Shown one piece after another: positions 2,068-26,031 of a stretch of 26,499 bases of DNA. Both the position numbers and the translations under genes were made by a program. This DNA is from a virus. Under the pieces are notes generated by a model, which had not been told where the DNA came from, ran no database searches, and saw only the letters and a program-made list of their open reading frames with translations. Where the stretch lies: positions 1 through 26,499 of the IMG/VR virus record IMGVR_UViG_3300008267_000474. One strand, written 5' to 3'. Numbering within the stretch: the first letter of the stretch is position 1; the number at the start of each line of letters is the position of its first letter.

Positions 2068-3798
2068 ATGTCGTCACACGGTTCTTATTTTAAGAATTGG
2101 TCGTCGATAGATAGAAGTACGACTCGCTTGCCTATAGAAAGGCAGGAGTATACTACGCCTTTTTTTGGACAAGTGATGGAGGTGATTTATGATAGTGAAG
2201 AGCCCGAACTTATAGGTGTCGTTAGAGTTAAAATCTTCGGCAGAGATACAGATAAGAAAGATGAAGATATTACTGCACCAGCTTTCCCAGCAGATAAAAA
2301 TATAATTAAATACCCAGTACCAGGAGAGCTTGTACTACTAGTTGTTGGTATATCAAGATTTGACGAAGAAAAAACATTAACGGGTAAAAGATTGTATTAC
2401 ACATCAGTATTGGCTTCAAGTGGTGTTGTAACATACAACGCAAATCCTTATTACCTAGATAAACCAAAAAGTGAGAGCAATACATTTTTTGATCCTGCTT
2501 ATGAAACACGGTTTCAAGCAAAGGATATACTAAAAAATAACAATAGCTTTATCATAGATGGTATGGCTAAGAATAGACCAATGCTAAAGCCGTACGAAGG
2601 TGATGTTATATTACAAGGAAGGTGGGGTGCGTCTATTAGGTTTGGTAGTACTGGATATGGGGAAGGTAATCAATGGTCTACTGCTCATCAATTATTACCA
2701 AAGTCAAGTGCATCACCACAATCAGGTAACGCTATAACATCTATAGTTGTTAGTAGACAGAGTGATAATTTAGCTACAGTTGTTGAAGATGTGAATAAAG
2801 ATGATTCATCGATTTATATGAGTGGAGTACCAAATATTCCAGTATTTTTAGCAACATCGAGAGATTTAAGTACGTTTGGTAGATTGTATAATGTACCAGG
2901 CAATCCGTTTGCAAGTCCAAGAGGTGATTATACTGCATTTCAAAAACCAACAATTGCTGAACCACGTATACAAGTCGTTAATGGCAATACTTCAGTAAAT
3001 TATTCCGGAGGTGGTGGAGGAGGTGGTGATTTTATTGGTGGCGGAAGCGGAGGAAGTGTAGATACCTCGGTTGTTAATCCATTTGATTTATACACATATC
3101 TATGCTGGAACCAGGGTAACTGGGGAGCTACCAATCATTATGCGTTAGCTTTTGGCGTTGGTCCAAATGCCTCGAGAAATGCGAAAGCAGTTGCAGAAAG
3201 TGGTATTTATAAAATAAAAAACTCACGATCAGGTACTTGGGAAAACATAAGCCAAAATTGGCCAGATAGGTATGTAGCAGTGAAAGTTGTTGCTCCGGAT
3301 GGCGCGCCTATGACTGTATACAAAGCCAGAGAAGTGTTTTTTAATGGAGGTAATGATAGATTAGTGGCACAAGCTTTCATAGATGCTTGGTACCAAATAT
3401 ATGCAGATAAACAAAAAGGTTACAAGAATTTATATGAAAGTAGTGGTACCACAAAATCTGGCTTACCATACGCAACATTAAGAGACATATTCAACAGATA
3501 CCAGCAGCCACAGAATGGCTTTACCGCAGAACGACTTGCTGTATTTGGATATATAGAAAATGGATTACAGACCGATACTGAGACAGATGAACATTTTCAA
3601 ACAATGTTTCAAATGGGTCGAACTTGGTATAGTAAATATATTGATAGAGCAGCAATACCAGCAGGAAGAAATAGGCCACAAATGGCAGGTAGACCAGGGA
3701 GAGTGGATTATGATATGGAGATATTAACTAGAGATGTAGTGCCGCTTATAGTAGAAAAGATACAAGATTTTCAAAGAGAATTAGATATAAAACTGTAA
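2068..3798 (+). CDS. gp5-like baseplate hub/spike protein with C-terminal domain of unknown function
   Basis: This encodes 576 residues. Residues 1-310 are the gp5-like module: an OB-fold-like part (FFGQVMEVIYD, VVRVKIFG, KYPVPGELVLL, YYTSVL, about residues 30-120), then a beta-rich part (PYEGDVILQGRWG, IRFGS, VEDVNKDDSSIYM, about 170-260). In T4, gp5 trimers form the central hub and spike that punctures the outer membrane. A Gly-rich linker lies at about 314-335, with seven consecutive Gly at 314-320. Residues 336-576 form a domain I do not recognise. It opens with YLCWNQGNWGATNHYALAFG, faintly like the AYN-x-G region of lysozyme-fold transglycosylases, but no catalytic Glu can be assigned. 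Because the two paralogues carry enzymes here, a lytic role is plausible but unproven. Spacing is 1 nt on both sides. Confidence 0.75.
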   Translation: MSSHGSYFKNWSSIDRSTTRLPIERQEYTTPFFGQVMEVIYDSEEPELIGVVRVKIFGRDTDKKDEDITAPAFPADKNIIKYPVPGELVLLVVGISRFDEEKTLTGKRLYYTSVLASSGVVTYNANPYYLDKPKSESNTFFDPAYETRFQAKDILKNNNSFIIDGMAKNRPMLKPYEGDVILQGRWGASIRFGSTGYGEGNQWSTAHQLLPKSSASPQSGNAITSIVVSRQSDNLATVVEDVNKDDSSIYMSGVPNIPVFLATSRDLSTFGRLYNVPGNPFASPRGDYTAFQKPTIAEPRIQVVNGNTSVNYSGGGGGGGDFIGGGSGGSVDTSVVNPFDLYTYLCWNQGNWGATNHYALAFGVGPNASRNAKAVAESGIYKIKNSRSGTWENISQNWPDRYVAVKVVAPDGAPMTVYKAREVFFNGGNDRLVAQAFIDAWYQIYADKQKGYKNLYESSGTTKSGLPYATLRDIFNRYQQPQNGFTAERLAVFGYIENGLQTDTETDEHFQTMFQMGRTWYSKYIDRAAIPAGRNRPQMAGRPGRVDYDMEILTRDVVPLIVEKIQDFQRELDIKL

Positions 3799-3799
3799 C

Positions 3800-5905
3800 A
3801 TGGGATCGTATTTTAAGGACTGGCCATCAATAATGCCTACTAAACCCTTCACAGATAGAAGGGGGGCTGATTCTACACAACCATACTTTGGACAAGTATT
3901 GGACGTACTATACGATAATGGTGATTTTGTCGGAATTATAAGAGTTAAGATATGGGGCATAAGTGAGGGTAAAGAGGATTATGACGGGGAGGATACAGTC
4001 GATACTTACGCAGAACCAGCAGATATTAATATAATTAAGTACCCCGTACCAGGTGAAATTGTTATGTTGACAATGGGCTTGAGGAGTAGAGATGACGAGG
4101 ATATAACAACAAAGACGTTTTACTACACAACAGTACTATCCTCAGGTGGTAGTATAAGCTATAATGGTAGTGCTTATTATATTAATACAACAAAAGCAAG
4201 AGCGAGTTTAGGTACAACGTCAACCGATCTACGAAATGCCGAAGAGTATAAGAAAAGGTTTCAAAAAGTTATGAAGGATTCAAAAAAGTTTTATGAATCC
4301 GACAAGCTAAAAATTAGACCAGTGCTTAGGCCCTATGAAGGTGATATGATTATACAAAGCAGATGGGGTTCTTCTGTTAGATTTGGTAGTTTAGGATTTG
4401 AAGACAATAATCAATGGTCTAAAAAGAAATCAGGATTATCAGGCGATCCCATAATGATCATATCTGCAAATAGCAGTACTGGCAACGCAACCGCAGTCGA
4501 AGATGTAAATAAAGATGACTCTACAGTGTACTTGTGTTCATCACAAACTGTACCAATAAACATTGCGACTTCAGAAAATTTATTATCATTTAGTAAAGTT
4601 TACAATGTACCGCCTAAGTCTATTGCAACAACGGTACCAGATAAGACTGTCTTTATTAGGCCAACACCAAGACCACCAGAAATATGGGTATCAGGTGTTG
4701 AATATACAGGCGGCGATGGCAGTAATGGAGGTCCTGTAACATTCCAGGGTAGTAGTGGTAATGGTGGTGGTACTTACGCTGGTGCCGGGAAAGGTGAACC
4801 TTTCCTTAAAAGTGTTGATGGTGTAGCTACACCATATGAACTACTTACATGGGATTTATTAGGTGCAAGAGAAGGATATGTGAATATATTAACATGGGAT
4901 TGTACATGCTGGAGAACAGGTGTTGGATCACACACTTTGACAGCGCATTGGGTAGATGCTAGTAAATATCATAATCAAAAAGCTGTACAAAAGATTGGAG
5001 GTAAAAGTTTGGTTGTATTAAATTTTTACGATAAGGATTTTATACACGATCCTGCTAATCCTACAAAAAAATATAACTCAGATCCATATTGGTGGCCATG
5101 GAGATGGAAAAATTACAATTTAGGTATATTGGAATTCAGGTATATTGGTGATAAAAAGGCTGATGTAGATGCAGCAAGAAGAAACACATCAAATACATTT
5201 GGTCAATTCGACTCAGGCTGGGCAGGACCTATATGGCATCAGGATATGTCTTATAAAAATCCAAAAAGTAAGTGGTATAATAATAAAGATTTTTTAGGCA
5301 GGTTTAAAGATAAAGAAAAGTCAAACCAACTTAAGCCTAATGATACTAGTCAAAATGGTTCACCACATATACAGTCATTTAACGATGCAAATATAGACTT
5401 TGCAAGAAAGATTAAAACAGAATTATTTAGTGGTGTTAAAAATCAAATCCAAAAAAAATCACAAGTTCCTGTCGATACCATTATTAATGCATTAGGTCCT
5501 GGTACCTGTGCAGCACTAACCTCCATAGCTTATAATGGCGGTGCTGGTGCTTTATCATACACAATACCACCAAATTTATTACCATTGGATTATGCGGGAA
5601 CGTTTGGATGCAAAACTCTAGCAGAAGTAGCAGCTACTGGTAATAGATTTGCAACAGCATTAGCTATTTCCGCCTTTTCGTTTAAATCAAGCGGAAATTG
5701 TGCTGAAGGAACAAAGAAAGGAGTCGCACAAGACAGAAGGCAAGTGGAGGCATATGTTGCTTTATACGATAAAATGCCACCAAACATGAAAGAGTTTGAC
5801 GATTATGCAGTTGGATCTGTATCAGCACAAGACAGTGTTAGAATTAACTTACAATCAACAATAACACAAGCAGCGTCAGAAGCTGGTGTAGCAATAACAG
5901 TATAA
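3800..5905 (+). CDS. 5: gp5-like baseplate hub protein with GH24 tail lysozyme domain
   Basis: This encodes 701 residues. Residues 1-300 are the gp5-like OB-fold and beta module; a Gly/Ser linker follows at about 304-335. The C-terminal domain is a phage lysozyme of the GH24 family, which cleaves the MurNAc-GlcNAc bond of peptidoglycan. E358, D367 and T373 have exactly the spacing of E11, D20 and T26 in T4 lysozyme, followed by GVGSH. Family landmarks also appear near the end: SIAYNGGAGAL (N579) and the Arg pair R646-R647. OB module plus lysozyme matches T4 gp5, but the order of the beta needle differs and no long needle follows the lysozyme. About 200 residues separate T373 and N579, far more than usual, with a Trp-rich insertion (YWWPWRWKNYN). 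This is the best gp5 orthologue among the three paralogues. Confidence 0.85.
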   Translation: MGSYFKDWPSIMPTKPFTDRRGADSTQPYFGQVLDVLYDNGDFVGIIRVKIWGISEGKEDYDGEDTVDTYAEPADINIIKYPVPGEIVMLTMGLRSRDDEDITTKTFYYTTVLSSGGSISYNGSAYYINTTKARASLGTTSTDLRNAEEYKKRFQKVMKDSKKFYESDKLKIRPVLRPYEGDMIIQSRWGSSVRFGSLGFEDNNQWSKKKSGLSGDPIMIISANSSTGNATAVEDVNKDDSTVYLCSSQTVPINIATSENLLSFSKVYNVPPKSIATTVPDKTVFIRPTPRPPEIWVSGVEYTGGDGSNGGPVTFQGSSGNGGGTYAGAGKGEPFLKSVDGVATPYELLTWDLLGAREGYVNILTWDCTCWRTGVGSHTLTAHWVDASKYHNQKAVQKIGGKSLVVLNFYDKDFIHDPANPTKKYNSDPYWWPWRWKNYNLGILEFRYIGDKKADVDAARRNTSNTFGQFDSGWAGPIWHQDMSYKNPKSKWYNNKDFLGRFKDKEKSNQLKPNDTSQNGSPHIQSFNDANIDFARKIKTELFSGVKNQIQKKSQVPVDTIINALGPGTCAALTSIAYNGGAGALSYTIPPNLLPLDYAGTFGCKTLAEVAATGNRFATALAISAFSFKSSGNCAEGTKKGVAQDRRQVEAYVALYDKMPPNMKEFDDYAVGSVSAQDSVRINLQSTITQAASEAGVAITV

Positions 5906-5906
5906 T

Positions 5907-7757
5907 ATGGCAGGTGGATCTTATTTTAAAGAGTGGGGATCTTTAGGTCCTAAAACAACACAACCAAGAAGTGTGTACGGCACTGACATATCTGCACCAT
6001 TGATTGGACAAGTATTGGATGTATATTACACACAGTCAAGAAATACCAACGCTGCCCCAGGTCTTATAAAAGTAAAAATATTTAGTTTTAATGATAGAAA
6101 AACTGATGAGGAGGTTACAACAATGGCCCACCCAGCAGATTTGAGTATTATTAAATACCCAGTACCAGGTGAACTTGTATTGCTAACAATGGCTTTAAAA
6201 GAGGATTTAGCTCTTAATAGAATAACCAAAACATTTTATTACACAACAGTGCTAGCTGCTGCAAAGAGTGTGACATATAATAGTAAGCCTTTTTATTTTG
6301 AGTATAAACCGGACACAAGTACATCAATTGTTAATGTTTTAAATGCAATATTCAAAAGTGACTCACCCGCAAAGAGGTTTGAAGTTAAATTGCAAGATGT
6401 AAGTAGATTTATGAAAAAATCTACTGTTATGGAAAGAGCAATACTTAGACCGTATGAAGGTGATTTTATAATACAGAGTAGATTTGGTTCATCACTAAGA
6501 TTAGGTAGTACTACAAAAGATGATAATCAATGGTCTAAGGTTGGTGGTGTACTTGGTAGTCCTATAACCATATTTTCTATCAAAACTGATGTACATAATC
6601 CGTTAAATGATCCAAAAAAACTACCAACAGCTCAAGACCAAGCAGGTGGAGATTTACGAGGAGTGTCGTTTGGAGCAGCGACAGCCGTGTTGACACAAGA
6701 TGCATTTAGTGAGTTATTAAGTAGTACAAAAAAGGAGAGATTGTTTCAAAAAAAACTTACAGTGGAAGATATAAACTCAGACGCTGCAACATTCGCTTTA
6801 TGTAGCAAGCAGCGGATCGAAGTTAAAATGGCAACATCTAGAGAGTTGTTAACATACAAATACTCTTATAATATATCTAACCAACCACTACAAGCACTTG
6901 AAAACCAAGAACCAACATTCTTACCAATGGTTGTTAAACCGCCAACTATCAGAGTATCAGGAGTAAGACCAGTTGGTCAAATTAACAGTAATGGTGGTAT
7001 AGATTCTAATTTAGGTAATAGTGGTGGTGTATTTGCTGGCAATTACCAAGAAGGAGGTGGTATAGATATTAAAGAATTATTTAAAGATGACCCAACTAAA
7101 TTGCAAGATAAAAACGCAGCTAGAAATCTCGACTACTATTCTGAAAATCAGTTTGGTCCTGTAACTAGAGAACATATTTGTGTTGGTGATTCACAAACAC
7201 CATACGTTTCTAGAAATTCTGTAAAAGCGGAAATCATAGGACCACCAGGCGTACCAAACTTACACCATGGTGGTGAGACTGTTAAGTGGTTAATAAGTGC
7301 TATAAAAACAAGAGCTGTGTCACCACTTGTAAAGACAGTCGTAGTTGTAATAGGTACCAATGGAAGATTTAGCAAATACGATAAAGTAGAAACACTAGTT
7401 CCAACAATGTTAGAAAGGTTTCCAAATGCTAAATTTTTAATAGTGCAAGGTGGATATGGTTGGGGATACCGAAATGGCCAGGCAGTAAACTTATTTATGA
7501 CAGACAAGACTGGTTTGACTGATGCACAAAAAGAAGCAGAAGACTTAAAAATAGTACAAACATACTATGCAAGATTTACAGAAGCGTTTAGAGTGGCTGG
7601 TAGTTCAAATAAGTGTATAATTGTGGAACCTGGGATTGGTAAACCAACAATGAAAAAGAAGAACGAAAAAGGAGAGTTGTATGATCAAGTTGAAGTGCAT
7701 CAGAACCATCCTATATATGGAGAGATAGGTAAAAAGATAGATAGTTTGATAGTGTAG
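5907..7757 (+). CDS. gp5-like baseplate hub/spike protein with C-terminal SGNH (GDSL) hydrolase
   Basis: This encodes 616 residues. Residues 1-350 are the gp5-like module (LIGQVLDVYY, KYPVPGELVLL, YYTTVLA, RPYEGDFIIQSRFGSS, NQWS). It is longer than in the paralogues because of an insertion of about 60 residues after the NQWS motif. A Gly/Asn linker spans about 360-386. The C-terminal domain has the SGNH blocks: ICVGDSQT with nucleophile S429, a GPPGV turn near 440, VVVVIGTNG with G483 and N485, and a terminal VHQNHPIYG with H598 or H601 as catalytic His. SGNH enzymes hydrolyse esters, often acetyl groups on polysaccharides. On a spike it could deacetylate surface glycan or peptidoglycan, which is inference. 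The start follows the lysozyme gene by 1 nt. A 26 nt gap follows. Confidence 0.8.
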   Translation: MAGGSYFKEWGSLGPKTTQPRSVYGTDISAPLIGQVLDVYYTQSRNTNAAPGLIKVKIFSFNDRKTDEEVTTMAHPADLSIIKYPVPGELVLLTMALKEDLALNRITKTFYYTTVLAAAKSVTYNSKPFYFEYKPDTSTSIVNVLNAIFKSDSPAKRFEVKLQDVSRFMKKSTVMERAILRPYEGDFIIQSRFGSSLRLGSTTKDDNQWSKVGGVLGSPITIFSIKTDVHNPLNDPKKLPTAQDQAGGDLRGVSFGAATAVLTQDAFSELLSSTKKERLFQKKLTVEDINSDAATFALCSKQRIEVKMATSRELLTYKYSYNISNQPLQALENQEPTFLPMVVKPPTIRVSGVRPVGQINSNGGIDSNLGNSGGVFAGNYQEGGGIDIKELFKDDPTKLQDKNAARNLDYYSENQFGPVTREHICVGDSQTPYVSRNSVKAEIIGPPGVPNLHHGGETVKWLISAIKTRAVSPLVKTVVVVIGTNGRFSKYDKVETLVPTMLERFPNAKFLIVQGGYGWGYRNGQAVNLFMTDKTGLTDAQKEAEDLKIVQTYYARFTEAFRVAGSSNKCIIVEPGIGKPTMKKKNEKGELYDQVEVHQNHPIYGEIGKKIDSLIV

Positions 7758-7783: not shown

Positions 7784-10700
7784 ATGCCTCTATCCAATAC
7801 AGATCCAAACCAACAACCCACAGCACCAGCTGGTACTGGTGCAGTATTGGCTCCAAGTCCATCATCAGGAACACCATCTGTATCAGGAGCACCGTCTCTT
7901 CAACTTTCACCTCTAAGCAACATACTGTCATCAGGCATAAACACATCACCGCAGTCAACAAGTACCGGAGCTGATCCAAACAAAGTAGCTGGCCAGCCCG
8001 ATCCGTTACCAGGTAGCACAGATAAATCCCCATCAAATAAAGGCAGCGGTAATGTATTAAATGATATATTCTACGACATGCAGGTTAGTATGACCGGCAT
8101 GCGCGATGTCAATAAAATACTTAATGTACAAAAGTCAAATGAAGGTACAGTAAATAACTATACAAACGGTAGTACAATTATTATTAATTCAGATCGTTTG
8201 ATATTAAACTCAAAAAAAGATTATTTAATGCTTTGTGGTACTAAAGGTGTTTTAGTTAGTAGTCCAAAAGCTGTGCATATAGATTGTGATGAAGATTTGC
8301 ATTTGTTTTCATCTAACGGTGAGATTTTTATTGGTTTACCAAACAAAGGTAAAGACTATGATTTCGATAGTCAAACACCACCATCAAAAAAATCAGATGC
8401 AACAATGAACGAAAGATGGGAGCCGCTTCCACTAGGGTTAAAGCTGATAAACTGGCTTCAGGATTTAACAGCAGCATTAGTTGGATCAGCTTATTATGGA
8501 CCAGGTGGTACGTCATTACCAACACCCGAAATGAGAGATAATATAGAAGGCTTAGCAGCTAGATTGCCAGAAATATTATCAACAATAGCATTTATTGATG
8601 GTGTGTCACACGCTAATCCATTACCCTATACACCATCAACAGAACAAAAACCTGCCGATAATAAGCCTGCAGATCAAGCTGGTAGTACTACGAGTGGAAC
8701 AGGAACCGCAACCGCTGATGGTAAGCCTGCAAGCACAAACACAACAACGGTTAGTGGAGCAAGTAATCCACAATCAGGTGGTGGAGGTACAGCGTCAGTC
8801 AGCGCTGGGTCAGCTGCTAACGCAGGCAACCTTGAAAATATTGAGTTAAACACAAGTACAAATAACGCAGATGGGGTTGTTGGATCAGGTACATCAACTG
8901 GTCAAAATGTTGAAGGATTTACTCCAGCTATAGATGGTGGATCTTTGGATATAAGTGGAATTACTACAAAATACTTTTACATAACAAGGCAAGAAACTAT
9001 TGACGAGGTCACAGAATCTCAGGTAGAGATAATGTTTAGAAATAGTGAATACTCTCCTGCAGGTATGAGTGAGAGAAGTAAGACAGCTAGTAAGGAGGAT
9101 TTGTTAAAGCAAGCATTTGATAATGCTAAGCAGAGTGGTATTACTGATTGTAATCAAAGTACAACAACAGATGCCGGTGTTTGGGATTTTAGTGATGTGT
9201 TCTTTACAATTGGAGAAGAGACGGACGCACCAGCTGCCGAACCAGTAGCTTTATTATCAACCTCTGATCTAGGTTCTATAAGTGTCAATATACCAATACA
9301 GCAAGGCTTCAATTCCTTCGGCAATTACACACCAGCCGATATTCCAACTGATTTCAAAGTTGTTGTAGAAGATAAGTATAGCACAGCATATCCAAGTATA
9401 ATAAATCTACTTAAAAACAGAACTGCAATGTCTCACATATCAAAGTGGGATGGTGCTAATAGATCAAGTACTGAGAACCAAGTTGCTGGTGTAATGAGTA
9501 ATTTTGATAATGGAATATTGTCTGTCGAAATTGATCTTGCTTTAGACAAATTAAATCAAGTATTACTTTACCATGATGCGACTTTAGATAGCAAAACAAA
9601 TGCAACTGGTGAGATCAGAAATTGGCCTCAACAAGCTAAGATTGATGGTGTAGATATAGCTGCAAGTGATGCTAATTGGTGGCAAAAAGTAAAATATAAA
9701 AATACAAACGAGACGCTTAATAAATTATCACAGGTATTTGATGCAATGGCAGCAAATAAGGAAAAGTATAAAAATTGTTTTGTACAATTAGATAAATGTG
9801 ATGGCGAAGAATTAAAAGTTGTTGCAAGTATGCTACAAAAGGCAGACAGGCAATGGCTTAGACCACAAGTTATATATAAAGGTCGTCAACCATCAGATGT
9901 AGGTAAAACAAACAATTTTACTTTTATGTACAAATTCAATCGTGGTTCAATGAGTGCGATTGCTAGTGACGCTGAAGTTACGAAAATACGTGATCAAATA
10001 CTTGATTGGAAAAGACAAGGTCACAACGTACCGTTAGTAGAGTTAGAGTTTACTTGCCAAGATATAAAGATACTAGATGGAACATTAGCTAAAGCACTTG
10101 CATCTATTGGCACTGGTATGATGATAGTAGCTGTTGGAGGTGCTCAATACACACAGCCACAAGATCGATGTATTGATAAAACAAGAAGAATCGAACCACC
10201 ACCACCACAACCTGGTCCAAACGATCCGCCATTAAGAGAAGATCAGATATTTGTATCTTATGATTTTACTGGAGATGGTCAAGATCAATGGAGAGCAATG
10301 GTAGAAACTGGTGCAATAATGATTATGACAAATAAACCAAAAGTGTGTCAAGATTACTTAAATAGCCAAAACATAGCATTACCAATACCATTTGAAATAA
10401 CACCGTCAACGTTTAGCGGATTAAACATTGTCATTAAAAACAAAGCAAACGCTAAATTAAGAACAACCGCAGAGATAGATGATACAACACCAGATAACTT
10501 TGAAGTAATTGCTGTACAAAAAGGAGCAATATCACTAAATGTAAAGTTTTGGCCAAAAACTGATACAAATGGAGCTGTAATAGGTGGCCACCTAGTTGGT
10601 GCAACAACAGCCATTACCGGTGAATCAGGTATAGCTGGTAAAGCTGTAACCTCTGGTGATATAATGAAATGGGTACAGAATAGAGCACAATACTTACCAA

Positions 10701-10882
10701 CTAATAGCATATGGAAAGATGTGTTTGTAGTAGTTGGACCAACTAGCGGTATAACGGTCGATGGAGTGAAAATCAAACCAGACTCAGCATTTGGACTTGA
10801 CCAGCATCCAACTGGTGTTAAGTTAGAAAAAACATACTACATATCATTAGCAGATATGGAATGGGAATGGCCACAAGTATAA
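7784..10882 (+). CDS. Spike/needle protein with glycerophosphodiester phosphodiesterase (GDPD) domain
   Basis: This encodes 1032 residues. Residues 1-90 are Pro/Ser/Thr-rich. Residues about 120-190 (INSDRLILNSKKDYLMLCG onward) show the alternating pattern of a beta-helical needle, like VgrG or gp5 C-termini. A Thr/Ser/Gly linker spans about 282-390. Residues about 545-865 match GDPD enzymes, which cleave glycerophosphodiesters with a metal ion in a TIM barrel: H551 in MSHIS, E564-N565 in STENQ, E582 and D584 in VEIDL, H597-D598 in YHDATLD, then TNATGE, a candidate ligand D670 and MIMTNKP at 847-852. The usual HRG reads HIS, so the Arg is missing. The C-terminal 150 residues form an unassigned beta domain. 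The likely role is attack on lipid headgroups, teichoic-acid-like or glycerophosphate-decorated surface polymers at infection; the substrate is unknown. Confidence 0.78.
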   Translation: MPLSNTDPNQQPTAPAGTGAVLAPSPSSGTPSVSGAPSLQLSPLSNILSSGINTSPQSTSTGADPNKVAGQPDPLPGSTDKSPSNKGSGNVLNDIFYDMQVSMTGMRDVNKILNVQKSNEGTVNNYTNGSTIIINSDRLILNSKKDYLMLCGTKGVLVSSPKAVHIDCDEDLHLFSSNGEIFIGLPNKGKDYDFDSQTPPSKKSDATMNERWEPLPLGLKLINWLQDLTAALVGSAYYGPGGTSLPTPEMRDNIEGLAARLPEILSTIAFIDGVSHANPLPYTPSTEQKPADNKPADQAGSTTSGTGTATADGKPASTNTTTVSGASNPQSGGGGTASVSAGSAANAGNLENIELNTSTNNADGVVGSGTSTGQNVEGFTPAIDGGSLDISGITTKYFYITRQETIDEVTESQVEIMFRNSEYSPAGMSERSKTASKEDLLKQAFDNAKQSGITDCNQSTTTDAGVWDFSDVFFTIGEETDAPAAEPVALLSTSDLGSISVNIPIQQGFNSFGNYTPADIPTDFKVVVEDKYSTAYPSIINLLKNRTAMSHISKWDGANRSSTENQVAGVMSNFDNGILSVEIDLALDKLNQVLLYHDATLDSKTNATGEIRNWPQQAKIDGVDIAASDANWWQKVKYKNTNETLNKLSQVFDAMAANKEKYKNCFVQLDKCDGEELKVVASMLQKADRQWLRPQVIYKGRQPSDVGKTNNFTFMYKFNRGSMSAIASDAEVTKIRDQILDWKRQGHNVPLVELEFTCQDIKILDGTLAKALASIGTGMMIVAVGGAQYTQPQDRCIDKTRRIEPPPPQPGPNDPPLREDQIFVSYDFTGDGQDQWRAMVETGAIMIMTNKPKVCQDYLNSQNIALPIPFEITPSTFSGLNIVIKNKANAKLRTTAEIDDTTPDNFEVIAVQKGAISLNVKFWPKTDTNGAVIGGHLVGATTAITGESGIAGKAVTSGDIMKWVQNRAQYLPTNSIWKDVFVVVGPTSGITVDGVKIKPDSAFGLDQHPTGVKLEKTYYISLADMEWEWPQV

Positions 10883-15563: not shown

Positions 15564-15992
15564 ATGAAAACAAAGGAGTTTATACAATCCTTAAGAAAGC
15601 TAATTAGGGAAGAGGTTAGAGCTGCGGTTAGAGATGAGCTTAGTGGCATAATAAATGAGTCAATAAAAGCACAGAAGCCAAAGCAACAGTCACAACCACA
15701 ACAACAATATAAAAAACCATCAAACTCAAACTTTAACACAGGTAACGCAACATTAGATGAAATATTAGCAGAAACTATTGTTCCAAGAGGGTTTGGTGGA
15801 GAGAGTGGCCCAGCTGTGTCAGATTATACTGATATGCATTTTACAACAAACGATGTACCTCAATCCTTAAGCACAATTGTGTCTGATGAGGATTTGCCAA
15901 TAACTACGGGTTATAGTGATCCAACAATGATGTTTGTAAAGGATTACTCTGCAATTATGAATAAAGCTAATCAAATAGGCGGTAAATACTAA
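15564..15992 (+). CDS. Small protein upstream of gp25, unknown function
   Basis: This encodes 142 residues. Residues 1-33 form a charged amphipathic helix (FIQSLRKLIREEVRAAVRDE), followed by a Lys/Gln/Pro-rich flexible linker (about 36-55). The C-terminal part contains NATLDEILAET and an acidic, Thr/Ser-rich stretch that looks largely extended. There is no membrane segment. The last base of its stop codon is the first base of the gp25 start codon, so the two are very likely translationally coupled. Position suggests a partner or assembly factor of the baseplate wedge; no homologous T4 gene is recognised. Confidence 0.65.
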   Translation: MKTKEFIQSLRKLIREEVRAAVRDELSGIINESIKAQKPKQQSQPQQQYKKPSNSNFNTGNATLDEILAETIVPRGFGGESGPAVSDYTDMHFTTNDVPQSLSTIVSDEDLPITTGYSDPTMMFVKDYSAIMNKANQIGGKY

Positions 15993-16501
15993 TGCCAATA
16001 TCAGATAACATAAGTGTATTAGATGCCAAAAAAGATGTAGCTATAGGCATTGATCTTCCTTTAATGGATGATTATGGTAGTAGATTTAAACAAAACTATG
16101 TAACATTAGATCAAGCATCTGCAAATGCAAGAAACTTAATATTAACAAGACCTGGCGAGAGAATTATGTTGCCTAATTTTGGTTGTAATCTTTATGGTAT
16201 GCTATTTGAAAACATATCAGATGACATGATTAATGAGTTTAAGTTAAGAGTAAAACAACAATTTGAGTATTGGTTACCTTACATATTTATAAATAACCTC
16301 GAGGCAAGTGCAACATCAAAATTTGAAATTGTTGCATCTTTAGATAAAGATTTGAATACAGTGTATACTAAGCAGAACAAAACAAATACAGAAAGAGACT
16401 ACGCTAAAAATACACTTTATGTTCATATGATTATTAGTTTAAAAAACAATAAATTTGACACCAAGTCAATTTCTTTAGAATTGACTAACAACATGACATG
16501 A
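15992..16501 (+). CDS. 25: Baseplate wedge subunit gp25
   Basis: This encodes 169 residues; T4 gp25 has 132. It belongs to the GPW/gp25 family, found in contractile tails and type VI secretion (TssE), and sits at the inner wedge where it contacts the sheath and gp6. The diagnostic stretch is at about residues 46-75: NLILTRPGERIMLPNFG followed by CNLYGMLFENI. The rest of the fold follows as INEFKLRVKQQFEYWLPYI and the terminal strand YVHMIISLKNN. The extra length is a Thr/Asn/Lys-rich loop near residues 120-138. It overlaps the upstream stop by 1 nt and the gp6 start by 4 nt (ATGA), an arrangement that fits balanced synthesis of wedge parts. Confidence 0.92.
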   Translation: MPISDNISVLDAKKDVAIGIDLPLMDDYGSRFKQNYVTLDQASANARNLILTRPGERIMLPNFGCNLYGMLFENISDDMINEFKLRVKQQFEYWLPYIFINNLEASATSKFEIVASLDKDLNTVYTKQNKTNTERDYAKNTLYVHMIISLKNNKFDTKSISLELTNNMT

Positions 16502-18390
16502 ACTCGGTAAACAGAGATATAACAAAAGAAGTAAGATATGCCGGCAGAGATTTTGATCAGCTCAAAGCAGGATTAATAGACTTTGCAAAAAAGTATTATC
16601 CATCATCTTACAACGACTTTAACGAAGCATCACCTGGAATGATGTTCATCGAGATGGCAGCATATGTTGGTGACGTGCTCAATTATTATATTGACTCACA
16701 ATTAAAAGAGTCAATGATATTACATGCTACAGAGAGAAAGAATATATTAAATATAGCACAAGCATTTGGTTATAAACCAAAAGTATCCGTACCAGCTTTT
16801 GTTGACTTAGACGTCATGCAATTACTTCCACCATCAGGCTCTGGTGCAAACACAGTACCTGACTTTGACTATGCACTAAGGATAGCACCTGGTATGATTG
16901 TAAGAAGCACTTACAACAATACAGATTTTATAATACAGGAGGAAGTTAATTTTAGTACAGATGATTATTTGTCACCAAGAACTATAACCGTTGCCGAAAC
17001 AAGTAATATTGATGGATCGGTTGTTTACTACTTAGCAAAAAAGACTTATAAAGGCATAAGTGCGCTTATGAGAGAAAAGACTATTGAGTTTGGTGAAGCC
17101 ACAAAGTTTGCAAAAGTAGCACTAAATGATGAAAATATAATTGGTATACAAAGCGTTGTCGACTCTGATGGTAATACTTGGTATGAAGTGCCATATTTAG
17201 CACAAGATACCATTTTTCAAAAAGTTGAAAACACACAATATAATGATCCGGATTCATATGTTAATACGCAGGAGGTACCCTACCTACTTAAATTATTAAG
17301 AGTACCACGTAGGTTTGTTGCTAGAGTAACACCCACAGGCATAGAGATGCAGTTCGGTGCAGGTTTAAGTACTTCACCTGGCGAGGAATTATTACCAACA
17401 CCAGAAAATATAGCTTTATCGTTACCAACCGGTATTGAAGATACAGATATCGCATTTGATTCTGTTAGTCCAATGTTTACATCAGCGTATGGACAAGCTC
17501 CATCAAACACAACATTAACTATAAAGTATTTAGTAGGTGGTGGCATATCGTCCAATGTTCCAACAAACACAATTACAACTGTTTATGAAAAAACAATATC
17601 AAATAATATACCATCAACAAACGCAGCTTTAAAAAAAGCAATAACTGACTCACTTGCAGTTAATAACCCAATAGCAGCAACTGGTGGAAGATCAGAAGAG
17701 ACAGTAGAGGAAATTAGACAAAATACACTTGCTCAATTTATGACACAGCAACGAGCTGTAACAAAGGATGATTATATTTTAAGAACATATGCAATGCCAG
17801 CAATGTTTGGTAGTGTATCAAAAGCGTACATAACTCCAGATCAGCAAGAAAACCTAACAACTGCAGATGTAGCAGACAAACTAGCTAACCCATTAGCTAT
17901 GAACCTATATGTGCTTGGATATAATTCAGAAAAGCAACTTACCGTAGTTAATAGAGCTGTTAAAGAAAATCTGAAAACATATTTAGCACAATATAGAATG
18001 CTGACGGATAGTATAAATATAAGGAATGCATTTATAGTTAATATAGGTGTAAATGTCTCAATAATATCTTATCCAGGATATAATGCTAATGAGTTAATAG
18101 GTAATTGTTTATCTGCATTAAAAACGCATTTCGATACAGACAGATGGCAAATAAACGAACCGATTGTTTTTAGTGATGTATTTGGCGCACTTATGAAAGT
18201 TGCTGGTGTGCAAATGGTAACAAAGTTAGAAATAACAAACTTGAATAATGAATTATTAGGATACTCAAACGTTGTATATGATATAAGAAGTGCAACAAAA
18301 AACGGTATTATATATCCAAGCTACGATCCCATGATTTTTGAGGTAAAATACCCAGATAACGATATTAAAGTAAGAATAACACCATACTAA
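16498..18390 (+). CDS. 6: Baseplate wedge subunit gp6 (baseplate J family)
   Basis: This encodes 630 residues, close to T4 gp6 at 660. gp6 dimers form the inner ring that holds the baseplate together and switch shape on contraction. N-terminal landmarks are YAGRDFDQLKAGLIDFAKKY and ASPGMMFIEMAAYVGDVLNY with the following YYIDSQ and ERKNILNIAQAFGYKP. A central LTIKYLVGGGISSNVP is typical of the family. The C-terminal half has the baseplate J signature GGRSEETVEEIRQNTLAQF followed by QQRAVTKDDYILR, then the C-terminal dimerisation region. The start overlaps the gp25 stop as ATGA; the next gene begins 1 nt after the stop. Nothing is truncated. Confidence 0.93.
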   Translation: MNSVNRDITKEVRYAGRDFDQLKAGLIDFAKKYYPSSYNDFNEASPGMMFIEMAAYVGDVLNYYIDSQLKESMILHATERKNILNIAQAFGYKPKVSVPAFVDLDVMQLLPPSGSGANTVPDFDYALRIAPGMIVRSTYNNTDFIIQEEVNFSTDDYLSPRTITVAETSNIDGSVVYYLAKKTYKGISALMREKTIEFGEATKFAKVALNDENIIGIQSVVDSDGNTWYEVPYLAQDTIFQKVENTQYNDPDSYVNTQEVPYLLKLLRVPRRFVARVTPTGIEMQFGAGLSTSPGEELLPTPENIALSLPTGIEDTDIAFDSVSPMFTSAYGQAPSNTTLTIKYLVGGGISSNVPTNTITTVYEKTISNNIPSTNAALKKAITDSLAVNNPIAATGGRSEETVEEIRQNTLAQFMTQQRAVTKDDYILRTYAMPAMFGSVSKAYITPDQQENLTTADVADKLANPLAMNLYVLGYNSEKQLTVVNRAVKENLKTYLAQYRMLTDSINIRNAFIVNIGVNVSIISYPGYNANELIGNCLSALKTHFDTDRWQINEPIVFSDVFGALMKVAGVQMVTKLEITNLNNELLGYSNVVYDIRSATKNGIIYPSYDPMIFEVKYPDNDIKVRITPY

Positions 18391-19474: not shown

Positions 19475-22400
19475 ATGGCAAGAGCTTTGGTAAATAGGAC
19501 AGCAGCACCGCCGACTCCTAGCTCAGAAAGAGGACCAGATGGTAGACTTGTAGGTGATTTAAATGACAACAAATCAGCGTTGATGTCAGGTAGCGTGCCT
19601 GTTATTGATAGGTCCTTTTATAATGAAAACTTAACAGCCTACTCTCTAATACCAACATTAATTAATTATCCACCATACTTTGAAACATCTGTCTACAATG
19701 CTAGTGAACCAATAGTAAAACCTATACAATTTAATGACGAGAATAGAGACATACTATATGTTGATGATACTGGAACAATAAAAGTAGCAGCTGGTTCAAC
19801 ATTTATACTTAGATGCAAAGCCCAACAGCCACCAATTTATAATGTTGAAAATGGTAAGCTAACATTATTATATGATACTGTTGTTCCTTTCGACGCAGCT
19901 AGAAGTACTATATCGGAAAATATTAATCAAAGACAATTAGTGTCAGGTAGTGCTGATGGTAGAGTTTATCTTGAAGATGATTTAACATATGCATGGTTTC
20001 TTGACAACACACCGTTAGAAGGAGTTGTAACCGATACAGTTAATAGAACAACAGAGGTAAGACTAGTTGAACAGGGAAGAGCGATATTCATAAAAAACAT
20101 AACTCCTTTCTTGGCTGGTACATATTATTGTGAAATATCAAACGACATCGGAACAATAACGACAGAGGAGATAACAATAGAGGTTTATAATCCTGATATT
20201 GAAAATAAATTTTATGTCAATTTAATTGAAAACTCTAGCGGTGAATCTGGAATAGAGGGTTGGAGTTCTCCGGATACAGAATTCATATCAGCAAAACTAA
20301 GCACAGCACCATTTACAGAGTTTACAAAACCTTGGAATATTGATGTGTTTGGGTATTCGTTAGATATGTTTTATCCAAGACCGTATCATCTAAATACCTA
20401 TCATATAAAAAATAACAGATTTGAACAAAATCTTGCAAATAACGGTAGCTACTTTACTAGAGAAGATTTTATTTATATTGCAAAAGATGGTAAAAAAATA
20501 GTTCAAGCCGAATATGATGTTGATCTAACAGATATACAAGAGTATATACAAGGATCTATATTTGGCATTGCTGGTGTAAGAGCTATTTTTGGTTGCTATA
20601 TTGGTAACGCAATATCAAAGTTTATACATACTGTTATAGCTGCATCAAAAAAGAGAAGGAATCAAATATACACAGTAGATACCAGTCAGCCTAGAGCATC
20701 ACTGATTAACTGCTTAATAGCAGGTGCACCGATTATAGATGAAAAAATTAAAGTTATTGTAACTGAATATGATAACGAAACACCACTCAAAACACGCAGA
20801 ATGATAAATCCTGATACAGGTCAGGAGGTAATAGAGTATGGTATAGTGATAGAGGATGCGTGGTCTAATTACATAGATGAGAGATATAAGTCAATATGGT
20901 TTAACGGAGAAACTGTTAATTTGGTTCCAGAACCACTACCAAGTGGGTTTGTATCAAAAGGAAATACACGGGAGGAAATTATAATAGAAGGCATATACCG
21001 CATGTTTCCATCTATAAATCAGATACCAACCCATGGCCAGTATGTAAAGTGGAATAGGGAAATTATATCAAAATTAAACTATAGAACAAATAAAATACGC
21101 GTACAAGTTCAATTCGAGATTACTGGTTGCATTGAAGAAACAGATACGTCTTTATTAGATGCATCAGATAGGCCGTTTGAGCAATGGTCATGGCAAAATA
21201 TTATAAAGCCATTATGGTTACCACAAAATCGTGACGCAGAGCTAAAAGTTGCTGGTGAACCTTTACCATTTTATATTAACAATAGACTAGAATCTGTAAG
21301 CGCTGAAGGTTCTGATGAAGTGTCGGCCTTAGATTATTTGCCTTTACACCCATCACCAAGAGCTCTGGCAACGGGTTTTAATTTAATTTTATTTCCAATT
21401 GAACGAAGAAGACCATTAAAAACCAAATATTACACTAAAACTATACTAGAAAGACAGCAATCAGTATCATATCCGACCTTGCAAAATTCTTTGACAGACA
21501 CAACAAGCGCAGATATGTTAGCATTCATAACAAGTATTCAAGCATATACAGGATCCATTATTGCAATTGAGGCAACAAATACTTATAACGTGCCAAAGAA
21601 AATACTACCAACAAATAACTCATATTATGTTGGTACCGATGCTAATAATCCAACCTATCAAGCTCTTGAAAATTTAAAAGCATACTCAGACGTACCTACA
21701 AAACTATCAATTGCAACTTACAAGTTTCGTAAAAATAACGACATCACATCAGAAGTACCGGTTAGAAATATAACAAGATTGTTTGATCAAGGTCTTGGAG
21801 AAGTGAGGGATTGGGAAGCAGCAGCTGTTGCACCAGAGCTTATAGTAGTTGGAACTATGGGTAGTACATATCAAGGAGTTATGAGTGGTCAACTACCACA
21901 AAATGCAATTGGAGGTGATGAAACACCATTTATATTGTATAACCCAAACGCGGTCTCAACCCGAGAAATATCAATACCACAAATCATAGACCAATTACAA
22001 TCATCACTTGTTAAGTTTGTTGATAATCCAATTATAACAAATATACCTAGTGGATTTGTTTTAGAGCCAATGAATATGTCTATATCTGATTATATTAAAA
22101 ATGTTGGGATAAATTTGCAATTAAAATATGAACCATATGGTGAAAATCCTAAATCAAGTGTAGGACAGATTAATCCAGTAACTAGATTTCAAGCATGGAA
22201 ACAAAAAAAATTAACAAAATTTGTATCACAGACTGGAGCAGAGTTTGATGAAATACCAACAGTTGACGTGAGATATAATTTTTTTACAAACGTTGCAGAC
22301 AATAACATAAACTATTACTCACCAAGGCAGATTATGATGTATAGTGATAGGCTGCTTGCAGAGTCAAATGTAAACACCAATCCATTATATAAGAAAAAAA

Positions 22401-23251
22401 CACAATACAATGTATATAATAACGAATACGCTACTGTTGATAATTTAGCATCGGCACCATATACTGAGTGGAAGGTTGACGCTAGTGAAGCAGTAGAAGA
22501 AGCACTTAGAAATGTTGGTTATGCATTAAAGGGTAGAGAGAGTAATTTATTAACATCCCCACTTACGTCAATTGATGGAACTATACTAACACAGCAGGAT
22601 GGATTCTCGGGAATGGAGTATACCAATTATGTACAAAACGAAGTGGAAGATATAGGACCAGGTCCAAATCATATTAAAAAGTATAAAGGTGTAAGTGATT
22701 TAGATAATATTAAAGTTGAAAGGGTAATTACAGGATACGTCAATTCACTAGGTTTACCCGTTAGTTACCAGATAGGACAGCAGGGTAATGTGTTAGGTAC
22801 ACAAACATATACACCAATTTACGAGACTCGTACTAATGTAGTAAGCTTGAAACAACAAGCATATAATAACGCAGTTGCTAAACTTGAACAAGATTATGGA
22901 TTAACTGGCAAAGGTGGTATTGCACAAGAAGGTTATGCAGTTGGTACAAAAAATTTTAAATTAGATGATGTTCAAGTTACTTATTATAAAAATGGTGAGG
23001 TAATGTCAAACCCACCAGTAGCGGTAGTTGAAGAAAACTCTGGTATCATAGCAAATGCAGAAGATTTCGAAGGTGTTACTGTACAATGTACTTTGACTAT
23101 TACAGCATGTGCTGGTAATTGGAGTAGAGTTGCATTAGAAGGATTGTCAACATTAGGTAATAAACTAACTCCTGCAGCGATAGTTTATCCAAAAGCAAAA
23201 AAAATATATTACTTTATTTATAACTATATAGACAATTACGAGCAAGAATGA
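19475..23251 (+). CDS. Large Ig-like domain baseplate/fibre protein
   Basis: This encodes 1258 residues. After a Pro/Ser-rich N-terminus (MARALVNRTAAPPTPSS), an I-set-like Ig domain lies at about 100-235: C114 in FILRCKA, W174 in YAWFLD, and C219 in AGTYYCEISNDIGT, with a conserved disulphide expected between C114 and C219. Their distance is longer than usual because of an inserted loop. At about 249, NLIENSSGESGIEGW begins a galactose-binding-like domain of the FBA type, which often binds glycans. The long C-terminal region (about 420-1258) is beta-rich and unassigned; residues 1150-1220 may be another Ig-like domain (VTYYKNGEVMSNP, GVTVQCTLTITA). The gene comes where T4 has gp7 (1032 residues), so a wedge role is possible but not shown by sequence. 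Its stop overlaps the next start by 4 nt. Confidence 0.7.
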   Translation: MARALVNRTAAPPTPSSERGPDGRLVGDLNDNKSALMSGSVPVIDRSFYNENLTAYSLIPTLINYPPYFETSVYNASEPIVKPIQFNDENRDILYVDDTGTIKVAAGSTFILRCKAQQPPIYNVENGKLTLLYDTVVPFDAARSTISENINQRQLVSGSADGRVYLEDDLTYAWFLDNTPLEGVVTDTVNRTTEVRLVEQGRAIFIKNITPFLAGTYYCEISNDIGTITTEEITIEVYNPDIENKFYVNLIENSSGESGIEGWSSPDTEFISAKLSTAPFTEFTKPWNIDVFGYSLDMFYPRPYHLNTYHIKNNRFEQNLANNGSYFTREDFIYIAKDGKKIVQAEYDVDLTDIQEYIQGSIFGIAGVRAIFGCYIGNAISKFIHTVIAASKKRRNQIYTVDTSQPRASLINCLIAGAPIIDEKIKVIVTEYDNETPLKTRRMINPDTGQEVIEYGIVIEDAWSNYIDERYKSIWFNGETVNLVPEPLPSGFVSKGNTREEIIIEGIYRMFPSINQIPTHGQYVKWNREIISKLNYRTNKIRVQVQFEITGCIEETDTSLLDASDRPFEQWSWQNIIKPLWLPQNRDAELKVAGEPLPFYINNRLESVSAEGSDEVSALDYLPLHPSPRALATGFNLILFPIERRRPLKTKYYTKTILERQQSVSYPTLQNSLTDTTSADMLAFITSIQAYTGSIIAIEATNTYNVPKKILPTNNSYYVGTDANNPTYQALENLKAYSDVPTKLSIATYKFRKNNDITSEVPVRNITRLFDQGLGEVRDWEAAAVAPELIVVGTMGSTYQGVMSGQLPQNAIGGDETPFILYNPNAVSTREISIPQIIDQLQSSLVKFVDNPIITNIPSGFVLEPMNMSISDYIKNVGINLQLKYEPYGENPKSSVGQINPVTRFQAWKQKKLTKFVSQTGAEFDEIPTVDVRYNFFTNVADNNINYYSPRQIMMYSDRLLAESNVNTNPLYKKKTQYNVYNNEYATVDNLASAPYTEWKVDASEAVEEALRNVGYALKGRESNLLTSPLTSIDGTILTQQDGFSGMEYTNYVQNEVEDIGPGPNHIKKYKGVSDLDNIKVERVITGYVNSLGLPVSYQIGQQGNVLGTQTYTPIYETRTNVVSLKQQAYNNAVAKLEQDYGLTGKGGIAQEGYAVGTKNFKLDDVQVTYYKNGEVMSNPPVAVVEENSGIIANAEDFEGVTVQCTLTITACAGNWSRVALEGLSTLGNKLTPAAIVYPKAKKIYYFIYNYIDNYEQE

Positions 23252-26031
23252 TGCGTGGTAGATTAAATACGGTTGGTTTACAGAAAGATGAATTCAATCC
23301 AAAATATGAATTATATCCTTATGTCACATTACCACCTGCAATACTAACATCTTTACTAAATACGTTTTCACAATATACATACGCAGATCAGATTGTACCT
23401 GGCGAATATGTTACTTATGTATTAAAAACCCAATCCAGTAATACAATTACTATGATTGAAGGAACAACCTTTGAAATTAGTAGCCTAGTAATTGATCCGT
23501 CTAGATTAAATGAAAGCGATACATCAAATGTGTCCTTTATTTGGACTAAAAACAATTCACCATTATACGAATTGAATTCAAAAAATAATTTAAAAGGTGA
23601 AAAAACAATAAGAATAGAAAATTGCTCTAGAGAAGCATCTGGTATATATAGGCTTGAGGTTCGTAATGACTACGGTTCGACTATCTCGGATGAACTAACA
23701 ATAGACGTTGTTAATGTAGATAACCATCCTTTAATGTTTAAAAATTTAATTGAAAATCCAAACGGAGCTAGAGGAACTGAAGGATGGACATTTGACGCGG
23801 ACTTTTTAACACAGAGATTTTATAGACCAATATTTGGTCAATACCACACAAGCATAAATCCACAAGTATATGTTGACCCAGAAAATAAGAAAAGGCCATA
23901 CAAACATGATTTTTATTTTGACATAAGCAACAATGAGATTCAAATGCCTTTTTCATTTGACAAAATAAAATCATTGGATTTAAACTCAGATCCTTATTGG
24001 CTTTGGTTAGTGCGAAATTATTTACCTACACTCGTTAGTTCGGAAGTACCGACAGACATAGGTGGAGTTTACCCAGCGCCTAAGTATTTGGATTTAGCTA
24101 ATAAAAATGGTAATTTTATGCCATTGCACAAGCAGTTAGAAATAAATAAAACTTATTTTACAAGAGACAAAATAAAATTTACAACTTTTGGTGGTAATGC
24201 AAATTGTGTTGCTTATCAAGATATTGATGTATCTTCTGTAGAAAACATCATAGATGGTGAAGCTTATGGCATAGATAAATTGTTAGTACACTTTTTTGCT
24301 TATATTGGAATTGGTATAAGTAGATACAAAACAAGATACACAACAAGGGATGGAGATGTGTTTGAAAACAACACAATACCACTTAACTACACTTCATATG
24401 TCTCATCATCGCTGGTGAATGAGATTTTAGAGCAAAGTGTAAAACCACCACTGTTACCTTATCTTCCCAATGTCGCATCAGCACTTTTTACAGAAATGGA
24501 TGTTGAGCAAATCATATCAACCTATTGCCCTAAAGATCCAACTGGACAATTTCCTATAGTACGATTCTGGCCTTTTTCGGGTGAATGGTCAGATTTACCA
24601 ATCACAGTAGCAAATGATCCGTGGCCAAATATAAAAGCAACAGGACTAGAACCATACGCAAATAAAATAGCAGCAAGTGGCTACTGGATTGGCTTTGTTG
24701 CAAATGAAGATGGAAATGGATACGAAAAAGTACCAGGTACTGATGATTTCAGAGTATGGTTTACAAAAATATCAGATCCTAATTCAATAAGAACACCAGA
24801 CGGTAGAGCAGTTAAATTAATAAGAATACCGGATGAGTGGAGTGCGCAGTATTATAAAGTGTCAGATAACACAGCCGAACTCCTAAATAATGATGTAAGG
24901 CTGCAAAATATTGTTAATATTAAAAAAAATAGCGATTTTGAATTAGAACCAGTTACTGATGATATAACGGAAGTCCGGTTAGATTTTTTAGATAGTGATA
25001 ACTACACAATAGAATCAACAACTATAACTGGCCCAACGGCAAAAGATATATGGGCAGTAAAAGAAAAGTTTTATATGCCATTTTACATAGCAAATATGTA
25101 TGGGTGGATAACTGATTTAACATCACAGCAAGTAAAAATATATAATAAACCATACACAACTGTTAGTGCTGTAAGAGCAGTAAGCAAAACTAACACAACT
25201 ATGGATTTGCACAGCGGGTGGGTACGACGTTATTTGTATGCATTGCTAGAAGATATAGATATAAAACAAAAAGAATGGTGGCCAGATATCGGTTATGATA
25301 GAGGTGGTGCTGCATTGTTTGGTATATCCGCAGATATACAAATACCAGTAAAAACGCGAACAATTAGAGTTAATGTAATTTTTAAACATTTATCATCAAC
25401 ATTGTATGATACAAATCCAAAACTAAAAGGATGGAACCAAGAAGATATATACTATGATTATCTATCTTCAACAAATATTGATAGAAGGGTGTATGCATAT
25501 GGTAATCCTAGATGTTGTATAACAAATATGCATTTATCACTTCACCCAAACAATGTTATCGTATCAGATAAACACCCAACCTACAAAATACCAGCAGGTA
25601 ACAAGTGGTATAAACATAAACGACTAATTGAGTCAAGTGATCTAGAGGTATTTAATAGTATTGGACCTCAAGGTAGCTATCCAAGCTTGATTGGAGCAAT
25701 AGACAGCCTACAATACAGATATAATATAGAAGCTGATAATGCTGAAGAAGCGTTTAGGTTGCGTCCTGATGAGGATGTTATAGTAGATGTTGAAAGGGAG
25801 ATACGTACACAAGATTCAATTAACAACTCACTTAACCCAACACCTACTGGTATAGATTTGAGAGTATCAATACCAGATTCACCTAGAACACCAAACGTTA
25901 TACTAGTAGATGGTGATAGTTATATTCAGGGAGAACAAGAGCTTGATTATGCTAATAATGCACGTAATGCACCAGTTTATGGTGACGAAAAGCCATCACA
26001 ATATGATGATAGGGATATATCGGACAATTAA
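23248..26031 (+). CDS. Large Ig-like domain baseplate/fibre protein, paralogue lacking the Ig cysteines
   Basis: This encodes 927 residues. The start at 23248 (ATGATG) overlaps the previous stop; the second ATG at 23251 is equally possible. The Ig-like domain covers about 65-155, with W99 kept (FIWTKNN) and ASGIYRLEVRNDYGS in place of the usual AGTYYC; the cysteine sites are Ser/Leu, so no disulphide is expected. NLIENPNGARGTEGW follows at about 166 and opens the galactose-binding-like domain, with YFTRDKIKF and GISRYKTRY further on. Several Trp-rich, Pro-rich beta segments follow (VRFWPFSGEWSDLP, DIKQKEWWPDIGYDRGGAAL). The C-terminus is acidic. The role is probably baseplate periphery or fibre attachment, inferred from context. 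A 44 nt gap follows. Confidence 0.68.
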   Translation: MMRGRLNTVGLQKDEFNPKYELYPYVTLPPAILTSLLNTFSQYTYADQIVPGEYVTYVLKTQSSNTITMIEGTTFEISSLVIDPSRLNESDTSNVSFIWTKNNSPLYELNSKNNLKGEKTIRIENCSREASGIYRLEVRNDYGSTISDELTIDVVNVDNHPLMFKNLIENPNGARGTEGWTFDADFLTQRFYRPIFGQYHTSINPQVYVDPENKKRPYKHDFYFDISNNEIQMPFSFDKIKSLDLNSDPYWLWLVRNYLPTLVSSEVPTDIGGVYPAPKYLDLANKNGNFMPLHKQLEINKTYFTRDKIKFTTFGGNANCVAYQDIDVSSVENIIDGEAYGIDKLLVHFFAYIGIGISRYKTRYTTRDGDVFENNTIPLNYTSYVSSSLVNEILEQSVKPPLLPYLPNVASALFTEMDVEQIISTYCPKDPTGQFPIVRFWPFSGEWSDLPITVANDPWPNIKATGLEPYANKIAASGYWIGFVANEDGNGYEKVPGTDDFRVWFTKISDPNSIRTPDGRAVKLIRIPDEWSAQYYKVSDNTAELLNNDVRLQNIVNIKKNSDFELEPVTDDITEVRLDFLDSDNYTIESTTITGPTAKDIWAVKEKFYMPFYIANMYGWITDLTSQQVKIYNKPYTTVSAVRAVSKTNTTMDLHSGWVRRYLYALLEDIDIKQKEWWPDIGYDRGGAALFGISADIQIPVKTRTIRVNVIFKHLSSTLYDTNPKLKGWNQEDIYYDYLSSTNIDRRVYAYGNPRCCITNMHLSLHPNNVIVSDKHPTYKIPAGNKWYKHKRLIESSDLEVFNSIGPQGSYPSLIGAIDSLQYRYNIEADNAEEAFRLRPDEDVIVDVEREIRTQDSINNSLNPTPTGIDLRVSIPDSPRTPNVILVDGDSYIQGEQELDYANNARNAPVYGDEKPSQYDDRDISDN

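Follow-up and report, generated by a model that had tools for sequence, protein, structure and literature searches.

The stretch of DNA analysed here (hereafter the window; 26,499 nucleotides, positions 1 to 26,499 of the IMG/VR virus record IMGVR_UViG_3300008267_000474) carries a block of baseplate genes, in which three paralogous hub genes are followed by a gene for a putative needle or spike protein and, downstream of the latter, by homologues of the T4-type wedge proteins gp25 and gp6. Residues 545-862 of this baseplate protein constitute a genuine and complete glycerophosphodiester phosphodiesterase (GDPD) domain. The features discussed below are listed in Table 1.

Table 1. Location of the GDPD domain, its key residues and the neighbouring baseplate features in the window
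Feature	Position	Strand	Basis
Three paralogous hub proteins (2068-3798, 3800-5905, 5907-7757)	2068..7757	+	Common N-terminal domain, differing C-terminal domains
Needle/spike protein, 1032 aa, GDPD-bearing	7784..10882	+	ORF; alignment of the needle part to 49 related ORFs
Conserved needle domain, residues 93-292	8060..8659	+	Profile A6; 30-52% identity to 22 aligned relatives; low-confidence model
Low-complexity linker (residues about 293-400) and domain of residues about 400-535	8660..9388	+	
GDPD domain, predicted beta/alpha barrel, residues 545-862	9416..10370	+	Profile matches, 29-sequence alignment, AlphaFold model
HRG-equivalent loop H551-I-S-K554-W555; Arg replaced by Ile552, basic residue K554	9434..9448	+	Alignment and DNA
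E582 and D584, predicted metal ligands 1 and 2, strand 2	9527..9535	+	Invariant in 29 sequences; model
H597-D598, second catalytic histidine	9572..9577	+	Invariant in 29 sequences
Q668-L-D670-K671; D670 the predicted third metal ligand, end of strand 3	9785..9796	+	D670 invariant, K671 conserved in at least 90%
Proline-rich insertion, residues about 786-827; missing in homologues; low model confidence	10139..10264	+	Alignment and model
T849 in MTNKP, end of strand 8 (canonical T-[DN]-x-P)	10328..10330	+	Conserved in at least 90%
C-terminal domain, residues 866-1032	10379..10879	+	
T4-type baseplate wedge: gp25 (15992-16501), gp6/Baseplate_J (16498-18390)	15992..18390	+	

The GDPD domain, which an initial annotation had proposed from the sequence, is borne out by profile matches, a predicted barrel and the full set of family motifs, and its extent fits the range given there. 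The isolated domain matches PDB entry 3i10 in a PDB sequence search (E 8.2e-7) and the NCBIfam GDPD model PRK09454 (E 1.8e-8). Against Pfam PF03009 it scores 22.4 bits (E 1.5e-4; 22.8 bits in the genome search), just under the gathering score of 23.6 bits, which is a curation threshold and not a biological feature. Identity to cellular GDPD enzymes in a 29-sequence alignment is low (17-24%), and neither the whole protein nor the domain, used as a direct query, retrieved anything useful from IMG/VR viral contigs or annotated phages.

AlphaFold, supplied with the domain alignment, returned an eight-stranded barrel (pLDDT 79.2, pTM 0.79) with strands at residues 547-551, 580-587, 666-670, 696-700, 713-718, 751-754, 778-782 and 846-849, in agreement with the TIM barrel expected of a GDPD. 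The topology is consistent with the clustering of the metal ligands anticipated earlier, with H551, E582/D584, D670, K699, E753 and T849 lying in barrel strands or at their ends and H597 just after a strand, where active-site residues are expected. Foldseek matched the model to 3i10 (E 9.5e-14), Bacillus subtilis GlpQ (3.5e-11) and the GDPD of the phi812 central spike (3.0e-10). The best VIA match was again 3i10 (Z 22.9, rmsd 2.9, 250 aligned residues), and 33 of the top 35 VIA rows, down to Z 16.6, are GDPDs or GDPD-type phospholipases. Two VIA entries found among the GDPDs, 7wwc (Z 18.5) and 7ww4 (Z 18.0), are titled beta-1,3(4)-glucanase. Dihydropteroate synthase, appearing at VIA Z 14.4 and below, was rejected as a member of a different barrel family, the sequence matches being all to GDPDs.

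The residues H551, W555, N565, E582, D584, H597, D598, T605, G609, D670, K699 and E753 are invariant across the 29 aligned sequences. The numbering given in the initial annotation for H551 (9434), I552, S553, E564-N565, E582, D584 and H597-D598 is correct in both the alignment and the DNA; its list lacked D670 (QLDK), K699, E753, K554 and the last strand with T849 (MTNKP). In B. subtilis GlpQ, calcium is bound by Glu70, Asp72 and Glu152, His43 and His85 are the presumed acid and base, and the phosphate is contacted by Arg44, His43 and His85 (PMC7086022). Both catalytic histidine positions (H551, H597) are present in the window domain and, as judged by alignment and strand position, the three acidic metal-ligand positions (E582, D584, D670) are filled, with D670 aligning at the position of Glu152. 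The window domain therefore resembles GlpQ (5t9b) in fold, in both histidines and in a predicted metal site built from Glu, Asp and one more acidic residue; that last residue is, however, Asp where GlpQ has Glu, and I552 occupies the position of Arg44, confirming the earlier observation that the arginine following the first histidine has been replaced.

This replacement is real but is not a local oddity of the window protein, since its three phage homologues carry HAG, HAG and HAA, with Ala in place of the Arg. The third residue after the histidine is Lys or Arg in each of the four phage proteins (K554 in the window), a position where none of the 25 aligned cellular homologues has a basic residue, and a four-residue insertion follows W555. 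In a tally made with a regular expression and corrected by hand for six sequences (HRGAH and HRGANH types), the HRG arginine is present in 75 of the 77 cellular GDPDs placed, the other two having Ala. These two sequences are L186 3851-4669 (GHAAAAGEA) and L190 2930-3715 (GHAGAGGEA). As the arginine is missing from the phage homologues and from these two cellular proteins, it was not taken as a defining residue of the GDPDs. The occurrence of a basic residue at the third position in the phage proteins, and in none of the cellular ones, raises the hypothesis that the phosphate-binding charge may have been relocated to K554 instead of being lost.

Only three close homologues of the window GDPD were found, all of them stand-alone proteins of phages of 180-350 kb. 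The protein designated L168 (5695-6765; 356 aa, in a 180.8 kb contig) was reached through an alignment built with weak phage matches and aligns with query residues 16-325 (tblastn E 5e-20); the other two, L258 (5677-6765) and L259 (5722-6807), in contigs of 289.7 and 348.6 kb, were found using L168. A scan with a six-sequence alignment revealed no additional member of the phage GDPD branch. L168 scores 65.7 bits on PF03009, above the cut-off, and matches 3i10 from end to end (E 2.5e-16), and thus bridges the window domain and the ordinary GDPDs; its second half weakly matches PF16387/DUF4996. In a tree of the 29 sequences the four phage proteins group together (support 100/99), separate from the 25 cellular proteins, which are mostly from Bacteroidota. 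The end branch of the strongly diverged window domain is long (3.65 changes per column), for which reason its exact position is unsure. As judged from these comparisons, the window GDPD is a member of a small phage-only branch with an apparently altered phosphate-binding loop.

The N termini of the stand-alone homologues, MSKILKFSQFIFESEE, MRIILEFNEFILESEK and MTNILDFTSFINEAEN, follow the pattern M..IL.F..FI.E[SA]E, which includes I-x-E, and appear to resemble the capsid-targeting propeptides of T4, in which L/I-x-E is the cleavage motif of the prohead protease (PMC9026906). If this reading is correct, one branch of enzymes would serve the head in some phages and the tail in the window phage. 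Two genes near the L168 GDPD, at 6831 and 8250, also start with capsid-targeting-like N termini. The hub profile found no match in the three large phages with stand-alone homologues, a result that says little.

The conserved part of the needle protein (residues 93-292) is common to 49 ORFs, some of them near-duplicates, at the same location in related contigs. It consists of repeated short beta strands (TIIINSD, RLILNSKKD, YLMLCGTKG, VLVSSPKA, VHIDCDED, LHLFSSNGE, IFIGLPNKG) followed by a helical part. The needle identity assigned earlier is likely in view of these repeats and of the fusion to a hub domain in relatives, but the monomer model is poor (pLDDT 60, pTM 0.28), and the needle profile matches the central spike 8kea weakly (E 0.49). 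The terms 'OB hub' and 'needle' are provisional and based on sequence pattern and gene order, since no significant PDB match was obtained with either the hub (A5) or the needle (A6) profile. Matches of the N-terminal part to sarcoglycan and other proteins (E 0.05-0.2) were rejected as chance. Searches gave no convincing family or relative for residues about 293-535 and no convincing match for the C-terminal domain (866-1032).

A search for PF03009/GDPD in 100 related virus records found it in none. The nearest relative, L082 (gp6 81% identical), has a 455-aa needle protein without a GDPD. As read by eye from motifs, the needle proteins of L104, L106 and L115 have M15 peptidase-like C termini, those of L093 have GH108-like and CHAP-like ends and L104 also has a lysozyme-like one; those of L006 and L082 end in domains without a family, and other needle proteins carry nothing. 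Pfam places VanY and GH108 domains in the neighbouring hub/baseplate proteins of L002 and L003. The absence of the GDPD from relatives sharing the needle identifies it as a lineage-specific cargo domain. A C-terminal domain with the motif GIN.HR..ASG/SATG..T.VN.YSAGCQV is common to a needle protein (L006 4647-6212) and a hub protein (L005 89-1048).

Separate genes encode the hub domain and the needle in the window and in the relatives nearest to it, whereas in 32 ORFs of more distant relatives, including the phages immuto and Mel-JY01, the two are fused (for example L102 2334-3932, L166 12414-13922 and L167 12876-14024), an arrangement that presumably recalls the layout of T4 gp5. The hub and needle profiles have no significant sequence match to T4 gp5, and the window differs from a spike of that type in its separate hub and needle genes and in the C-terminal location of the enzyme. 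The 32 contigs with a complete region, some of them near-duplicates, encode one, two or three separate hub paralogues and at most three needle paralogues each, L104 having a single hub and three needles. This ceiling of three suggests a trimer, potentially a hetero-trimer bearing different enzymes. In the third hub paralogue of the window, residues about 395-616 are SGNH/GDSL hydrolase-like (GDSQ, GTN and a late H), and its C-terminal part weakly matches platelet-activating factor acetylhydrolase (E 0.011). The second has a lysozyme-like stretch, ALTSIAYNGG, within residues about 345-701, and its C-terminal part has no Pfam or PDB match.

Relatives of the window gp6 are abundant in IMG/VR; among cultured phages, Microcystis phage Mel-JY01 matches best (48%), followed by Flavobacterium phage immuto (42%), the latter from a Baltic Sea mesocosm. 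A Shine-Dalgarno-like motif precedes none of 15 window genes and none of 17 immuto genes, as against five of five in Staphylococcus phage Stab23. The gp6 relatives and the missing motifs fit a Bacteroidota-like host, which is likely on this basis although short of proof. The description of the phage as marine and T4-like is too specific: the baseplate does have T4-type gp25 and gp6, but the nearest cultured relatives are Mel-JY01 and immuto. The association of phage GDPDs with Gram-positive hosts, on the other hand, holds, as the majority of the phage matches come from such phages; a GDPD in a tail protein of a phage of a Gram-negative host is unusual but has precedent in the tail-fibre GDPDs of Aeromonas phage pAEv1810 and Escherichia phage DTL.

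Among known systems, the putative GDPD 3i10 of Bacteroides thetaiotaomicron is similar to the window domain in whole-domain fold and motif order, and its group shares with it the (N/Q)-L-D-K motif of strand 3, the Trp after the first histidine and the Lys and Glu of strands 4 and 6. Unlike that group, the window domain lacks the HRG arginine, has Lys/Arg for Asp/Gln at the third position after the histidine, contains the insertion after the Trp as well as the proline-rich insertion, and is fused to a phage baseplate protein. The central spike of Staphylococcus phages phi812 and K (9eul, 9f5m; Z 19.3 and 18.8) also bears a GDPD on the baseplate, but there the HRG is kept, the host is Staphylococcus and the domain lies at the extreme C terminus, whereas in the window about 167 residues follow it and the spike is of a different type.

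Taken together, an intact and active metal-dependent GDPD, borne on the needle of a phage that has a contractile tail and infects a Bacteroidota-like host, and predicted to be used in envelope penetration, has in our judgement slightly better than an even chance of being the correct reading. By comparison with GlpQ, E582, D584 and D670 would hold a divalent metal and H551 and H597 would act as acid and base, so that cleavage of a phosphodiester would release a glycerol-phosphate group. The needle would bring the enzyme to the host envelope at puncture, and action there is considered most likely because the GDPD occupies the slot taken by peptidoglycan hydrolase-like domains in related needle proteins. 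Teichoic acids are regarded as the target of the tail-borne GDPDs found in phages with Gram-positive hosts (PMC10194240). In the window phage the substrate may be the headgroup of a (lyso)phospholipid or a surface polymer that carries glycerophosphate. Gram-negative hosts lack teichoic acids, and a glycerophosphate-bearing glycan or (lyso)phospholipid is therefore the likelier target. With the HRG arginine lost and a basic residue two positions further on, phosphate binding is probably kept, and substrate preference may shift.

Some of the evidence runs against an active needle enzyme: I552 stands where GlpQ has a phosphate-contacting arginine, the stand-alone homologues belong to unrelated large phages and give no hint of acting in the tail, the domain is highly diverged and just below the Pfam cut-off, the needle fold is unsupported by the model, and the teichoic acid target of the Gram-positive systems is missing from Gram-negative hosts. 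The loss of the arginine, together with the long branch and the 17-24% identity to cellular enzymes, would suit a pseudoenzyme whose GDPD fold is kept for binding a phosphorylated glycan or lipid headgroup without cutting it, and of which the flanking domains without a family could form part. We consider such a protein rather unlikely, as every acid/base and metal position is retained, all four phage members have a basic residue at the third position and the cellular GDPDs L186 and L190 likewise do without the arginine.

It is also improbable, in our estimate, that the domain is a delivered effector working inside the host after entry, in the membrane or cytoplasm, for instance on membrane lipids or in phosphate metabolism. 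The capsid-targeting-like N termini of the stand-alone homologues would imply a location in the head and ejection with the DNA, but that interpretation is itself drawn from sequence, and the window GDPD is fused to a baseplate protein that has no such N terminus. An assembly artefact joining a host GDPD gene onto a phage spike gene would explain why the combination is known from a single contig, with no GDPD in the 100 related records; it is highly improbable, given that both parts lie within one open frame and that the domain clusters with phage GDPDs and away from the cellular ones.

If the enzyme is active, contractile phages of Gram-negative hosts can use the needle itself to bring a phosphodiesterase to the envelope, implying an entry step on a glycerophosphate polymer or phospholipid; to our knowledge, no such step has been described for Bacteroidota phages. 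The loss of the arginine throughout the phage branch, close to a newly basic position, offers a handle for mutagenesis of phosphate binding and substrate choice in GDPDs, and the needle/hub family provides a natural series of swappable enzymes. A broader and more speculative proposal, to which we give little weight, is that a phage GDPD branch with a rebuilt loop is directed from the puncturing needle against a Gram-negative, Bacteroidota-type envelope, beside a split, hetero-trimeric spike of up to three different hub paralogues that each bring a C-terminal domain of their own. Were the split-spike reading true, it would describe a puncturing tip armed with several enzymes, its cargo exchangeable and its envelope target new for contractile phages. 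Further along the window, 19475-26031 encodes two proteins of great length, 1258 and 927 aa, which match immunoglobulin-like domains weakly and probably function as tail fibres or in adhesion.
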